Below, one piece after another: positions 49,800 through 58,296 of a stretch of 64,000 nt of DNA (position 1 is its first letter; the number at the start of each line of letters is the position of its first letter). The notes under the pieces are model-generated. The model was not told the DNA's origin, did not search any database, and worked only from the letters and a program-made list of their open reading frames with translations. Position numbers and translations under genes: made by a program. The stretch spans positions 1-64,000 of the forward strand of contig JANLFY010000002.1 in the NCBI GenBank assembly GCA_024653485.1, given 5' to 3'. The stretch is from Bacillota bacterium (GTDB lineage Bacteria > Bacillota > SHA-98 > UBA4971).

Positions 49800-50540
49800 G
49801 CATGGGACAAGACTTCCAGCTGTTGAAGCCCCCTGGCTGCAGTTGCCCGTGGACATCGAGCCCGATACGGGGGACATCCACGCAAACCTCAGCAAGGCTG
49901 CCATCACCTCCCTCCGCACGAAGGCCATCCTCCCAGTGGACGCCTTCGGCCAGCCGGCGAGGCTCGATGTTATCCGCGAGCTCGCGGACCGCCACGGACT
50001 CGTGGTTATCGAGGACCCCTGCGAGTCCCTGGGTCGAATACAAGGGCACGAAGGTCGGGCACGGCGCCTTCTCGCACGGGGCGGTGTTCGCGTTCTATCC
50101 CAACAAGCAGATCACCACGGGAGAGGGCGGGATGATCGTCACCGACGACGACGGGGTAGCCCGCCTCTGCCGGAGCATGTGCAACCAGCGATGGGGAGGG
50201 AGGCCGGGGTGTGGCTTTCTCACGAGCGGCTGGGCTACAACTACCGCATGGACGAGCTTTCGGCCGCGCTCGGGGTTGCGCCGATCTCGCGCATCGAGGA
50301 GATCATCGTCAATCGCGAGCGGGTTGCGGCGATGTACTCGGGACAGTGTTCCGCAGCGGCGAGTCCCTTGCCGGGCATGGCCGGCTCCCAGGCCTCGTCA
50401 GGGGCACGGCGGCGTGGCGACCGCAAGGCGAAGCCGGTGGTCGTGAACATCGGGCATGACACCGCGCCCATGCGCCCATCGGCTAGGCAAGTATCGGCAA
50501 GTCAAGTGCGGTATCGCAACGCGATAATGCGAGCGTAGCG
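49800..50540 (+). pseudogene. DegT/DnrJ/EryC1-type aminotransferase relic, copy B
   Basis: Pieces in successive frames give most of a DegT enzyme: VDIEPDTGDIHANL, ILPVDAFGQPARLDVIRELA and VVIEDPCESLG. After a shift comes HGAFSHGAVFAFYPNKQITT with the PLP Lys, and after a second shift LSHERLGYNYRMDELSAAL and ISRIEEIIVNRERVAAMYS. At least two frameshifts and loss of the N-terminal 70 residues make it non-functional. It is uninterrupted, unlike copy A, and is better preserved. Confidence 0.8.
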
Positions 50541-52351: not shown

Positions 52352-53365
52352 CTAGACAATATAGAGAATCTCTGCGTGAGGTAGCACCGCCTCGATTTGG
52401 CTCTCGAAGAACTCTCGAATCTCGTCCATCACGTTATCCGGGTAGACATACTTGCCGTATCCGAACTGACCGTACTTGAATCTCCGCTCTTCCTCGCCGA
52501 GAGGGACCTCGGTGCCAGGATACACTTCTTTGATGATCTTCTTGGCCCTCGCCGTGAAGCGGTGTGTTATGAGCTCGAAGGTAACCTGAACGTCCTCGGG
52601 CAGGTGGTCCCTCACTGTGCGGAGGAGGTTCGCGTACTCCTCTTGCCATCCCTCGAACACAAAGATGGGTCCCACGAGAAAACCCAAGGGGTACCCGGCC
52701 TTCGCGATCTCCCGCGCTGCTTTGAGCCTGTGCTGAAGCCGCGGCGTTCCCGTCTCGAATTTCTCAAGGGCGTAGTTGCAGTTGACGCTGAACCTGACCT
52801 CGGTCTTGCCCTGGTGTGGGAGCCCGAGCAGCCCGCCGACGTCAGTGTACTTGGTCACGAACCGGAACCTGGCGTTATCCAGACCGGCAAAGAACTCTAT
52901 CGCCCGCCGAAGTGAGCCCGTCCATGCTTCGACCGCGACGGGATCCGATGTGGCGGAGCCCTCGAATACAGTGGTCGCCGGGCTACGCTCGTCTACGTAG
53001 TCCCGTGCCCGATCCATGATTTCGTCGACATTCACATACACCTTGACGTAAGGGGTTCGCCCGAGATTGGTGTTCAAGTAACAATACTGGCACAATCCTG
53101 GACATCCGGATACCAGGGGCAGCTGATAGTGCGCCGATGGCCTGCAAGTCTGGAAATCCCGACCCCGCCATACCAATACCACCATCGTTCGCTTGGACAG
53201 GAAGAACCGCTCTGAGAAGTCTTGTCTCGGCAGGACCGGGATCCGTTTCTCGTAAACCGACACTTCAATGCCTTTGGCCTTTAGCCGATTCATGAGTTCG
53301 CGTCCCAACGGATACGCGAGAGCTGCTTGCTGGATAAAGGCCAGCCTGGGAATGAACGAGCCCAC
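52352..53365 (-). CDS. SplB-like radical SAM protein with Ala in place of the catalytic Cys
   Basis: 337 residues, the length of spore photoproduct lyase. The radical SAM cluster is C88-x3-C92-x2-C95 in SGCPGLCQYCYL; Y94 and Y96 match the hydrogen-transfer tyrosines Y97 and Y99 of B. subtilis SplB (constant offset of 3). The segment FEGSATSDPVAVE aligns with the SplB block that normally reads SCTSD; A138 stands at the position of catalytic Cys141. The C-terminus (KYVYPDNVMDEIREFFE) is family-like. It probably acts on DNA or a related substrate with altered chemistry. It is a single-gene unit; no splA is adjacent. Confidence 0.85.
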   Translation of the reverse strand: MGSFIPRLAFIQQAALAYPLGRELMNRLKAKGIEVSVYEKRIPVLPRQDFSERFFLSKRTMVVLVWRGRDFQTCRPSAHYQLPLVSGCPGLCQYCYLNTNLGRTPYVKVYVNVDEIMDRARDYVDERSPATTVFEGSATSDPVAVEAWTGSLRRAIEFFAGLDNARFRFVTKYTDVGGLLGLPHQGKTEVRFSVNCNYALEKFETGTPRLQHRLKAAREIAKAGYPLGFLVGPIFVFEGWQEEYANLLRTVRDHLPEDVQVTFELITHRFTARAKKIIKEVYPGTEVPLGEEERRFKYGQFGYGKYVYPDNVMDEIREFFESQIEAVLPHAEILYIV

Positions 53366-53719
53366 CCGTCTTCACCTCGTAGTCGTAGTGATCACTGTAC
53401 TAATGCTGCCCCCGGTTCCCGATTGTTAACCTCTCTAGATTCCATGCCACAATGGGCTTAGGGTCGCATGACCGGTTGACGCCCTTGACGCCGTCGGCGG
53501 TCCGTGATGACGTGTCGATCCCTCCGACGAGTCTCCATTCGGGCGGACACACTCGTGATCAGAAAATCCTTACGCGATTAGAAGGAAATCTGGACTGCCT
53601 ATCGAATACTCCTCATAAGGACGTTATAACGGGATGATCTATTACCGTTATAATGGCCACTGCGCGGGGGCGTCTGACGATTTCCCCTGCAAGATCTTGA
53701 GCACATGGGAGACGTTGAA
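53366..53719 (+). promoter_or_regulatory. Regulatory region of operon 4 with an inverted-repeat operator
   Basis: CGTTATAACGG (53622-53632) and CCGTTATAATG (53645-53655) form a nearly perfect 11-bp inverted repeat with a 12-base spacer. The right arm contains TATAAT (53649-53654), so regulator binding would cover the -10 element. No good -35 is seen. This is the likely site of the GntR/UTRA regulator encoded just downstream. The rest of the region (53366-53620) shows no gene. Confidence 0.7.
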
Positions 53720-54460
53720 ATGCTGAACAGAGACAACCCTACTCCGCTGTATTACCAGCTAGCTGAGGAAATAAGGTCCAGGATTGAGTCCAATGAGTAC
53801 GTCATTGGGGAGGCCATCCCGCCTGAGCCGGAACTTGAGCAGCTGTTCAGAGTGAGCCGCGTGACTGTACGGAATGCCATCGACCTTCTGGTATCCCAAG
53901 GCTTGCTTGTCAAGCGGCCGGGGAAGGGAACGTTCGTGCGCGCTGCCAAAGTCACGCAGCCCCTCAATGTCATAAGCAGCTGGACAGAGACGATGCTTGC
54001 ACGCGGTGTGAAGGTCGAAACCAGGGAACTAAGAGTCGAAGAGAAACTACCGCCTGCCAGAGTGGCAGAGGTCCTGTGCCTGCAGCCCGACGAGCCGGTA
54101 GTCGAGGTATTCAGACTCCGAATGGCGAACGGCGAACCTATGACTCTGATGACGAACTACCTCGTCACATCGATCGGCAGGCCTCTAATGAAGATAGGGG
54201 TGACCGATGAATCTCTATACAGAGTCCTCGAGGAGAAGCTGGGCGTGGTCCTTGCCAGTGCTGAGGAGATAGTCCAGGCACTCGCCGCAGATGGGGAACA
54301 GGCAAAACGCCTGGGGGTGAAAAGGGGGTTTCCATTGATACAGGTGGCTCGAGTAACCTATGACTCGGAGGGCACGCCGATCGAATACGTGACAGTGGTG
54401 TCTAGGGCGGACCGATATCAATACAGCGTTCATCTCGCCGGGCGACCGAAGCGTTCTTAA
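53720..54460 (+). CDS. GntR-family regulator, HutC/UTRA subfamily (operon 4)
   Basis: 246 residues from the ATG at 53720 (GGGAG 9 bases upstream; an ATG at 53705 is possible). The winged HTH spans about 5-75 (LYYQLAEEIRSRIESNEYVI, FRVSRVTVRNAIDLLVSQGL, RPGKGTFV). The UTRA ligand domain follows (WTETMLARGVKVETREL, RLRMANGEPMTLMTNYLVTS, EYVTVVSRADRYQYSV). UTRA regulators bind sugar phosphates, sugar acids or urocanate-like ligands and usually act as repressors. It is first in operon 4 and faces the TTATAA-containing operator. Confidence 0.9.
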   Translation: MLNRDNPTPLYYQLAEEIRSRIESNEYVIGEAIPPEPELEQLFRVSRVTVRNAIDLLVSQGLLVKRPGKGTFVRAAKVTQPLNVISSWTETMLARGVKVETRELRVEEKLPPARVAEVLCLQPDEPVVEVFRLRMANGEPMTLMTNYLVTSIGRPLMKIGVTDESLYRVLEEKLGVVLASAEEIVQALAADGEQAKRLGVKRGFPLIQVARVTYDSEGTPIEYVTVVSRADRYQYSVHLAGRPKRS

Positions 54461-54511
54461 GAGCACGCGGTGCGCACCGAGCACACGTTAGCAGAGAAGG
54501 AGGCGCAATGG

Positions 54512-56323
54512 GTGTCGATAGGAGGGTTTCACGGACGTCTACTTCTCGTTGATCTGAGTTCCCGGGAGTGGGGGACGGAGACAGTCCCGGGGGAGTACTA
54601 CGAGGCGTTGCTTGGTGGACGCGGCGTGGCTGCACGCTACTACTACGACCGGACCGGGCCTTCCGTCGACCCCTTCGGAGAAGACAACGAGCTGATCTTC
54701 TTCACGGGTCCGCTGACCGGAGTGAAGATCCCCTGCGGAACAAAGCTGAGTCTGTCCACCCGCTCACCTCTCACCATGCACTATACCTGCTCGAACGCCG
54801 GCGGCGACCTCGGACCACGCCTGAAAGCGGCGGGGTACGACGGCCTCATCGTTCGCGGCAGAGCGACCTCACCAGTCTACATCAAAGTGTCGGAGCAGGG
54901 CGTAGACATCCGCGACGCTGCTGACCTTTGGGGGCTGACAGTGTCCGAAACTATGGAGAAGCTTCGCGACACGTCGGTTTCCCCTTCCGAGAGTGTCCTG
55001 ACCATAGGGCCAGCTGGGGAGAGACTTGTACGCTTCGCGTCAATGATGGCCGACGACCGGGTCTTTGGCCGAGGAGGCGCCGGGGCCGTGATGGGCTCCA
55101 AGCGCCTCAAGGCTATAGTGGTGGGTGGCAGCCAGGAAGTGCCAGTTGGTGACGCCAGGGCGATCGACGCTGTTGTGCCGGAACTAGCCAGGACGATCCG
55201 TGGCGAGAAGTTGGATCTAGCGGAATTTGGCACCTCTCAGCTGACGCAGATCATGAATGACCTTGGCTGCTATCCCATCGAGAACTTCCGCACATCGTAC
55301 TCGGAGAATATCGAAGCCATCAACGCAATCACCATGAAGGCTAAGTATTGGTTCAAGAATTCCTCATGCTACAGATGTCCCATCGCGTGCGGACAGGTGT
55401 GTAAGGTCAAGGAGGGGCCATTCGCGGGTTGCGCAGTGAGGCCCGAGTACGAGTCCAGCTGGGCCCTCGGCGGGCACTGTGGCGTGACCGATTATTCTGC
55501 GATTCTTGGGGCGCTTCATCTGTGCAATGAATATGGGCTAGACTCCATGACGGCCGGGTACATGGTCGGGTTTGCGATGGACCTTTTCCAGCACCGGCTA
55601 ATAGATTCGAGACATCTGGCTGGTATATCTCTCGAGTTCGGCGACGGCGAAGATTTGGTGAAGATGATCGAAATGATAACTCTTCGTGAGGGACTGGGAG
55701 CCGAGCTCGCAGACGGTATTCTAGCTGTGCTCGAGCGTCACCCCGACTGGGCTGAGTACGCAGTGCACGTCAAGGGTATGCCGTTCGCCGGCTACGATCC
55801 CCGGGCGTTCCACGGGATAGGACTGACGTACGGAACCTCGAGCCGAGGTGCATGCCACAACGTCGGCGGCTGGACCATTTCTGATGAACTCTTGTCCGGC
55901 CGGTATGACCGATACGCGTTGGTAGGCAAAGGTGAGCTAGTCAAACGGCTTCAGGATGTGCGCGCGTTCGTGGACTCGTCGGGCATCTGCACCAACGCTC
56001 GAAGACCATTGGGTCTCACCGACAAACCGAAGGATGTCGTTCTGAAAGCCGTCACGGGACTGGACATGACACCAAGACTCATTGAAATTGGAGAACGCAT
56101 ATATAACCTCGAGCGGCTGTGCCTCAACCGGGAAGGCGTGGGTCGCCGCGACGACCTGCTCCCGGCGCGGATGAGCGTTCCGATACCGACCGGACCGGCC
56201 GCCGGCCATAGTCTTGGCTCGGCTGAGTATGACGTGATGCTGGATGAATACTACCGCACGCGGTGCTGGAGCGTGGATGGGCGGCCGAGTGAGGAGAAGC
56301 TGAAAGAACTCGGTCTATCTTGA
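54512..56323 (+). CDS. Aldehyde ferredoxin oxidoreductase family protein (operon 4)
   Basis: 603 residues from the GTG at 54512, which is 8 bases after AGGAGG and gives the usual N-terminus GFHGRLLLVDLSSRE. The tungsten/molybdenum-pterin N-terminal domain has LGGRGVAARYYYD, FFTGPLTGVKIPCGTK and RGGAGAVMGSKRLKAI. The 4Fe-4S ligands are C286-x2-C289-x3-C293 (SSCYRCPIACG) and C493 (DSSGICTN). AORs oxidise aldehydes to carboxylic acids with ferredoxin in anaerobes. The position between a sugar regulator, cupin and FGGY kinase suggests that a sugar aldehyde or a breakdown aldehyde is the substrate. No dedicated cofactor gene is in the window. Confidence 0.92.
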   Translation: MSIGGFHGRLLLVDLSSREWGTETVPGEYYEALLGGRGVAARYYYDRTGPSVDPFGEDNELIFFTGPLTGVKIPCGTKLSLSTRSPLTMHYTCSNAGGDLGPRLKAAGYDGLIVRGRATSPVYIKVSEQGVDIRDAADLWGLTVSETMEKLRDTSVSPSESVLTIGPAGERLVRFASMMADDRVFGRGGAGAVMGSKRLKAIVVGGSQEVPVGDARAIDAVVPELARTIRGEKLDLAEFGTSQLTQIMNDLGCYPIENFRTSYSENIEAINAITMKAKYWFKNSSCYRCPIACGQVCKVKEGPFAGCAVRPEYESSWALGGHCGVTDYSAILGALHLCNEYGLDSMTAGYMVGFAMDLFQHRLIDSRHLAGISLEFGDGEDLVKMIEMITLREGLGAELADGILAVLERHPDWAEYAVHVKGMPFAGYDPRAFHGIGLTYGTSSRGACHNVGGWTISDELLSGRYDRYALVGKGELVKRLQDVRAFVDSSGICTNARRPLGLTDKPKDVVLKAVTGLDMTPRLIEIGERIYNLERLCLNREGVGRRDDLLPARMSVPIPTGPAAGHSLGSAEYDVMLDEYYRTRCWSVDGRPSEEKLKELGLS

Positions 56324-56349
56324 TCTGATTCGGAAGGAGGCATGGGCTG

Positions 56350-56730
56350 TTGTCTCCCAAAGTCGTTGATCTTCACGTTGAGGCCGTGGATTCGGATGTG
56401 TGCTCGTTCCCGACTCTGCTCAACGCTAAACCTGATGCAATAGTGAGAGACTCGTTCGTCCTCTTGTCGCCGGAGAAAGGGGGCTCTGAGAGCATCACCA
56501 TGGGCTATACGGTGGTGTACCCGGGGTGTCGAACGCGCGGTCATCAACATGCTGACCTGGAGGAGGCGTACTTCGTTGTGAAAGGCCGTGGCACGGCCGT
56601 TGTCGGGGAAGAGGAGTTTGAGATAAGCCAAGGCAGCGCGTTCTACGTGCCGTTTGGAAAGTTTCACGCGGTGAAGAATCCCTACAAGACATGCCTGGAG
56701 TATGTGTGGGCCATTGCGCCCAAGCGCTGA
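56350..56730 (+). CDS. Cupin-domain protein (operon 4)
   Basis: 126 residues, a single cupin barrel: RTRGHQHADLEEAYFVVKGR (first motif with two His and Glu) and GSAFYVPFGKFHAVKNP (second motif with His). The TTG at 56350 is 9 bases after AAGGAGG. Small cupins of this kind are sugar isomerases, mutarotase-like enzymes or lyases. It lies between AOR and the kinase and may isomerise the sugar or sugar acid; this is inference. Confidence 0.8.
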   Translation: MSPKVVDLHVEAVDSDVCSFPTLLNAKPDAIVRDSFVLLSPEKGGSESITMGYTVVYPGCRTRGHQHADLEEAYFVVKGRGTAVVGEEEFEISQGSAFYVPFGKFHAVKNPYKTCLEYVWAIAPKR

Positions 56731-56763
56731 TGGACTTCGGTTCTCCGGTCGAGGTGAAGCCGA

Positions 56764-58296
56764 ATGGGTTCAAAGGACTACGTATTGACAATCGACATAG
56801 GAACCGAGACAGGACGCGCGGCTTTGGTCGACCCGAGCGGATCGTGTGTGAGGATTGTCTCAGTCCCTTATGAGGTTGACTGCCCAAAGCCCAATTGGGT
56901 CCAACAGGATCCGGAGATGTGGTGGACATCGACATGTCACAACATTCAGCAGCTGCTGAAGGAGTGCGAAGTCGATCCAGCCTCGATAGCATGTGTTGCC
57001 GCGTGTGGACAGATGCACGCGCCTGTCTCCCTGGCGAAGGATGGATCGCTGGTTCCCGGACCGGTTCCCCTCTGGTGTGACAAGAGAACGGCCGACTTGT
57101 GCAAACAAATCCGGGCGTCCAATGACGAGGTGGCATTGGCGCGACTAGCTGGCAATCCGGTATGTCCGTCTTGGACCGGACTGAAGATGGCTTGGCTGCG
57201 TGAGAACAGCCCGGCGGTTTACGAACGCACATGGAAGTTCCTTACCTGTAAGGATTTCATCAACTACAAGTTGACGGGGGAGGTCGCAACGGACTACTCC
57301 GAGGCTTCCGGAACGTTCTTGATGGATGCTGAGAGAAAGGCCTGGTCGGTTGAGCTTTGCGACGTCTTGGACGTTGACATCGGTAAGCTCCCACCCATTC
57401 TGCCGGCGGACCACGTAGTCGGCACGGTAACGAGAGAAGCCGGAAGGCAGACGGGTCTTGCCGAGGGTACGCCGGTCGTAACGTGCGGCGGCGACATGAT
57501 GTGTATCCTTCTGGGAGCGGGAGTGGCAGTCCACGGAGTAGCGTGCGACGTCACGGGCACTGCTGCGGACATATCGGTCTTCTGCCCGTCTCCCGTCACC
57601 GACATCCGTCTCATGAACCTGCATCACGTTGCGCCTGGCTGGATCGCTTTCGGTATCCTCGACGCCGGCGGCGGCAGCCTGAAATGGTTCAAGGACGAGT
57701 TCTGTCAAGAGGAGCGGCGTGAAGCCCAGGAGTGCGGCGTCTCGGTATATGAGGTCATGAGCAAGAAGGCATCGGCCGTGGGGCCTTGTTCTGAGGGAGT
57801 GGTCTTCCTTCCCTACCTGTTGGGCGAGCGAACCCTGGGGACTCCCAATGCGCGCGGAGTCATTTTCGGCCTTACGACTCGACACACGAAAGCCCATGTC
57901 ATCAGAGCAATCATGGAGGGAGTCAACTTCGACTTGAGGCAGAGTCTAGAGATCATAGAAGAAAGCGGGGTGAGTGTTAGGGAGATCAGGGCTACCGCAG
58001 GAGGCGCTAGGAGCTCCGTGTGGTGCCAGATCAAAGCCGACATCTACAAGAAACCCATAGTCGCGCTCGAGGAAACTGAAGGAGGGATCATGGGCGGCGC
58101 AATTCTGGCATCGACGGGCGCGGGATTGTACGAGTCTGTCGAGGAAGCTGCGTCCGCAATGGTGAAACGCGGACAGACCTATTTGCCGTCGCCTTCTTCG
58201 GTGGTCCGCTATGACGAAGGCTATCGCGTATTCAAGTCGCTTCATGACGCTCTCCAAGACAAGTTCGACGCGGCGGCTAGGGTCTTCGCGGGCTGA
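56764..58296 (+). CDS. FGGY-family carbohydrate kinase, xylulokinase-like (operon 4)
   Basis: 510 residues, full FGGY length. N-terminal domain: TIDIGTETGRAALVD (phosphate-1 loop) and ACGQMHAPVSLAKDG. Catalytic Asp in TCGGDMMCILLGAGV. C-terminal ATP site with GTAADISVF, LDAGGGSLKWFKDE and RATAGGARSSVWCQIKADI. It phosphorylates a sugar, sugar alcohol or sugar acid with ATP. Closest by pattern to xylulokinase and related ketose/aldonate kinases, but the substrate cannot be read. The start follows GAGGTGA, 33 bases after the cupin gene. Confidence 0.92.
   Translation: MGSKDYVLTIDIGTETGRAALVDPSGSCVRIVSVPYEVDCPKPNWVQQDPEMWWTSTCHNIQQLLKECEVDPASIACVAACGQMHAPVSLAKDGSLVPGPVPLWCDKRTADLCKQIRASNDEVALARLAGNPVCPSWTGLKMAWLRENSPAVYERTWKFLTCKDFINYKLTGEVATDYSEASGTFLMDAERKAWSVELCDVLDVDIGKLPPILPADHVVGTVTREAGRQTGLAEGTPVVTCGGDMMCILLGAGVAVHGVACDVTGTAADISVFCPSPVTDIRLMNLHHVAPGWIAFGILDAGGGSLKWFKDEFCQEERREAQECGVSVYEVMSKKASAVGPCSEGVVFLPYLLGERTLGTPNARGVIFGLTTRHTKAHVIRAIMEGVNFDLRQSLEIIEESGVSVREIRATAGGARSSVWCQIKADIYKKPIVALEETEGGIMGGAILASTGAGLYESVEEAASAMVKRGQTYLPSPSSVVRYDEGYRVFKSLHDALQDKFDAAARVFAG

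Follow-up and report, generated by a model that had tools for sequence, protein, structure and literature searches.

A clostridial-type spore photoproduct lyase with alanine at the Bacillus donor position and a putative hydrogen-donor cysteine at position 74

The gene at 52352-53365 of the analysed window (64,000 nucleotides of contig JANLFY010000002.1 from a Bacillota bacterium) very probably codes for an ordinary, functional spore photoproduct lyase (SPL) of the Cys74, or clostridial, type, a DNA-repair enzyme of spore formers in which Cys74 would act as the hydrogen donor. The initial annotation had described the product as an SPL relative that lacks the catalytic cysteine, with alanine at the position of Cys141 in B. 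subtilis SplB. Alignments bear out this Ala138, and its coordinates are exact, but the cysteine has been relocated to position 74, where it had been overlooked. Several lines of evidence point to a Cys74-type enzyme, namely the equivalog match, the exchange of two cysteines across 160 SPLs, the invariance of Cys74 and of the cluster and tyrosine residues, the predicted fold, the best match to the structure 4RH0, the repair activity of the Clostridium acetobutylicum enzyme, the Spo0A and SASPs of the host and the constraint on the gene. No evidence against this reading was found in these analyses. The Cys74 layout is already described and the importance of the case is only modest; it illustrates how a residue-level comparison that relies on B. 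subtilis SplB as the sole model can give an ordinary enzyme the appearance of being without its catalytic residue.

Family membership, fold and key residues

The window protein matches the NCBIfam equivalog TIGR04070 with 468.7 bits (E 9e-141; residues 4-337 on profile positions 1-338), against an equivalog cut-off of 400 bits, and the Pfam SPL family PF20903 with 390.5 bits (cut-off 27). Its top PDB sequence match is 4rh0 (E=4.5e-90) and, as judged from these scores, its similarity to SPLs is far above chance. An AlphaFold model, built with 25 relatives as input, reached a pLDDT of 90.7 and was compared with the six SPL crystal structures, which represent all solved SPLs. The TM values obtained were 0.96-0.97, with 4RH0 as the closest fold match (TM 0.97, rmsd 1.4).

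The cysteines of the CxxxCxxC motif and the two flanking tyrosines (C88/C92/C95 and Y94/Y96) correspond to C91/C95/C98 and Y97/Y99 of B. subtilis SplB (numbering from PMC3742179) with a constant offset of 3, just as the initial annotation had it. Ala138 lies in the segment FEGSATSD and is aligned with C140 of the Geobacillus thermodenitrificans SPL and C141 of B. subtilis. Besides the cluster cysteines, the protein contains only two others, C74 and C196. The latter was rejected as a substitute donor, being conserved in 16% of the Ala138 relatives and in none of the Ser138 group. The following features of an SPL are present: equivalog score, CxxxCxxC motif, donor cysteine (at 74), Tyr94/Tyr96, fold and a SASP-bearing host. 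The signature of the Bacillus-type (Cys141) subgroup is absent, since the protein carries Ala138 and Cys74, not Cys138 and Ser74.

Table 1. Features of the gene and of its product in the window
Feature	Position	Strand	Basis or remark
splB, spore photoproduct lyase, clostridial (Cys74) type	52352..53365	-	337 aa plus stop; TIGR04070, PF20903 and PDB 4rh0 matches
Likely ribosome-binding site GAGGTG	53373..53378	-	Putative, from reading of the sequence; GAGG ~9 nt before the splB start
Radical-SAM [4Fe-4S] motif CPGLCQYC, C88/C92/C95	53081..53104	-	Invariant in 122 SPLs of the A138/S138/C138 groups
Tyr94 and Tyr96 codons (B. subtilis Y97/Y99, radical relay)	53078..53086	-	Invariant in 122 SPLs, both cysteine types
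Ala138 codon GCC (position of B. subtilis Cys141 / G. thermodenitrificans Cys140)	52952..52954	-	Alignments
Cys74 codon TGC, putative clostridial-type H-donor cysteine	53144..53146	-	Survey of 160 SPLs; C. acetobutylicum C74 (PMC5368176)

Exchange of Cys74 and Cys138 across SPLs

Relatives were drawn from GTDB species genomes, and 160 non-redundant SPLs were aligned. The first 123 relatives were the best-scoring only, and 40 lower-scoring stretches were added against sampling bias; none of these additions provided an exception to the mutual exclusion of Cys74 and Cys138. The residues at positions 138 and 74 are Ala and Cys in 93 proteins, Cys and Ser in 53, Ser and Cys in 13, and Gly and Cys in one. 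Cys74 is present in all 107 SPLs without Cys138 and Ser74 in all 53 with it, while an SPL with both cysteines or with neither did not occur (0/160). When the 123 relatives were checked by position, the groups without Cys138 showed no variation at Cys74, the cluster cysteines or the two tyrosines, and had no further conserved cysteine. This pattern indicates that SPLs, as far as their aligned sequences tell, retain exactly one donor thiol, and it is the natural counterpart, in 160 enzymes, of a published rewiring experiment. The strict exclusion of Cys74 and Cys141 across Bacillota is a mildly new point.

The initial annotation had proposed to examine whether Ala138 marks a clade; the opposite was found. 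In the tree, a single branch (support 99) separates the 37 Ser74/Cys138 proteins examined in this way from the rest, and they form one Bacilli clade. The window protein is placed among Ala138 proteins, its nearest relative being an 83% identical protein of the same genus. In the sequences compared, Ala or Ser138 is the usual state outside Bacilli, widespread among the other proteins, and it is the Cys141 type that constitutes the clade. Taken together, the exclusion in 160 SPLs and the nesting of the Cys138 proteins as one clade of Bacilli suggest that the exchange happened once and that Cys141 is derived. The search of this phylum with TIGR03886 gave no member above its cut-off, hence a weak outgroup for rooting; since the quick tree has a distant outgroup and several open forks, the derived state of Cys141 is a hint only. 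We see an even chance that the donor cysteine moved once, Cys74 with Ala/Ser138 being the older state across Bacillota and Ser/Cys141 the outcome of one derived exchange within Bacilli. SPLs in nature would then mirror, in reverse, the engineered C140A/S76C substitutions of the G. thermodenitrificans enzyme, and forms with both or neither cysteine would not survive.

Three divergent SPL-like radical-SAM proteins (L078, L140 and L141, from genomes G030, G138 and G146), with 28-29% identity, have cysteine at neither donor position. They score ~228 bits with TIGR04070, which is below its cut-off, and 177 bits with TIGR03886, and they carry additional cysteines near the cluster motif (CxxxCLYCYLVCN...KC). 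These proteins represent the real case of no known donor and would be a better place than the window gene to look for altered chemistry. Separately, the SPL genes of genomes G046, G098 and G624 are broken into two pieces, which suggests decay or assembly errors.

Comparison with characterised SPLs and proposed mechanism

In the C. acetobutylicum SPL, as described in PMC5368176, the conserved cysteine is C74, located opposite the conserved tyrosine in the pocket; this C74 is regarded there as the H-donor, and the flexible pocket must close, joining these residues. On SP TpT this enzyme yields ~80% TpT and ~20% TpT-SO2- (Yang et al. 2017, cited in PMC5368176). The window protein belongs to the same family and has C74, with an identical residue number, rather than a cysteine equivalent to Cys141 of B. 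subtilis. The two enzymes come from different host lineages, and they are compared by residue number, the alignment being made with other Clostridium SPLs (45-49% identical).

B. subtilis SplB and the wild-type G. thermodenitrificans SPL (4FHC) have the cluster motif, both tyrosines and the fold in common with the window protein (~42-43% identity) but, unlike it, carry the donor as Cys141/Cys140 and serine at the Cys74 position. According to their PDB entry titles, 4RH0 and 4RH1 correspond to the G. thermodenitrificans SPL engineered as C140A/S76C; indeed, the wild-type chain has serine where 4RH0 has cysteine and the window protein Cys74. The residue layout of these structures at both positions is therefore that of the window protein, though it was engineered in a Bacillus-type enzyme and is the natural state here. 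We take 4RH0 and 4RH1 to be the structures described in Benjdia et al. 2014, Chem. Commun.

An SPL paralogue without any H-donor, which acts on another substrate or whose thymine radical is quenched by solvent or small thiols, seems very improbable. In its favour, the window protein has alanine at the Cys141 position, and in the accounts given by PMC3742179 and PMC5368176 the B. subtilis C141A variant is inactivated for repair in vivo and produces TpT-SO2- in vitro. However, the window protein possesses Cys74, which is strictly conserved wherever Cys138 is absent, and SP is repaired by the C. acetobutylicum SPL of the same layout (PMC5368176). Moreover, the window gene is the sole SPL relative in the 3.0 Mb host genome, it scores above the equivalog cut-off, and the host has SASPs. 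The initial annotation had deduced another H-donor or another substrate. The first part is retained, with Cys74 as the probable donor, already known from C. acetobutylicum in the cited account and mimicked by C140A/S76C; the second is disfavoured by the score, the conserved tyrosines and fold, and the SASPs. A cysteine from another segment serving the site, which that annotation had itself named as evidence against its claim, is what Cys74 provides.

As a normal Cys74-type SPL, the window protein would operate as follows. SAM would be reduced by the [4Fe-4S] cluster on C88/C92/C95 to give a 5'-deoxyadenosyl radical, which would abstract H6proR of the spore photoproduct, and the dimer would then split. 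Cys74, which lies across the pocket from the site of B. subtilis Cys141, could donate a hydrogen to the thymine allylic radical, after which Tyr94 and Tyr96 may help return the radical to 5'-dA and SAM. The sequence, predicted fold and residue conservation come from this analysis and the chemistry from published work on the B. subtilis, G. thermodenitrificans and C. acetobutylicum SPLs; we infer from this conservation that the window protein performs the published reaction. Its exact radical relay can be proposed with less confidence than that of the B. subtilis SPL, since C74 of C. acetobutylicum is a less well-placed donor, as the 20% of TpT-SO2- reported in PMC5368176 implies.

Gene integrity, host and surroundings

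The splB reading frame on the minus strand is intact, with a GTG start and 337 residues, and an in-frame stop sits three codons upstream of the start. A sigma-70-type promoter sought upstream of splB was not found, and a search by eye for a forespore sigma-G site in the same region gave nothing convincing. Compared with the homologue of the same genus (proteins 83% identical), there are 83 synonymous and 56 non-synonymous codon differences, which argues that splB is under constraint. A decaying gene whose cysteine was replaced through drift could be imagined from the single substitution and from the fragmentary copies in some relatives (G046, G098), but this reading, to which we give almost no credence, is refuted by the conservation pattern: the full-length frame is intact, the cluster and tyrosine residues are conserved, the differences from the 83% identical homologue are mostly synonymous, and Ala138 is common to 93 of the 160 SPLs. 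The isolated alanine in a single decaying gene, which the initial annotation had also considered as an objection, is accordingly not what we observed.

The host genome encodes Spo0A (376.7 bits) and has five matches to alpha/beta-type SASPs, three of them strong. Judged here by gene content alone, the host should form spores in which spore photoproduct builds up in the DNA, so that the normal SPL substrate is expected.

Divergently from splB, the plus strand of the window at 53705-58296 carries genes for a GntR/UTRA regulator, an aldehyde:ferredoxin oxidoreductase, a cupin and an FGGY sugar kinase; these probably belong to an unrelated operon for sugar acids or aldehydes. At 49802-50538, matches to a DegT/DnrJ/EryC1-type aminotransferase extend over two overlapping plus-strand frames, which suggests a frameshifted or decayed gene.
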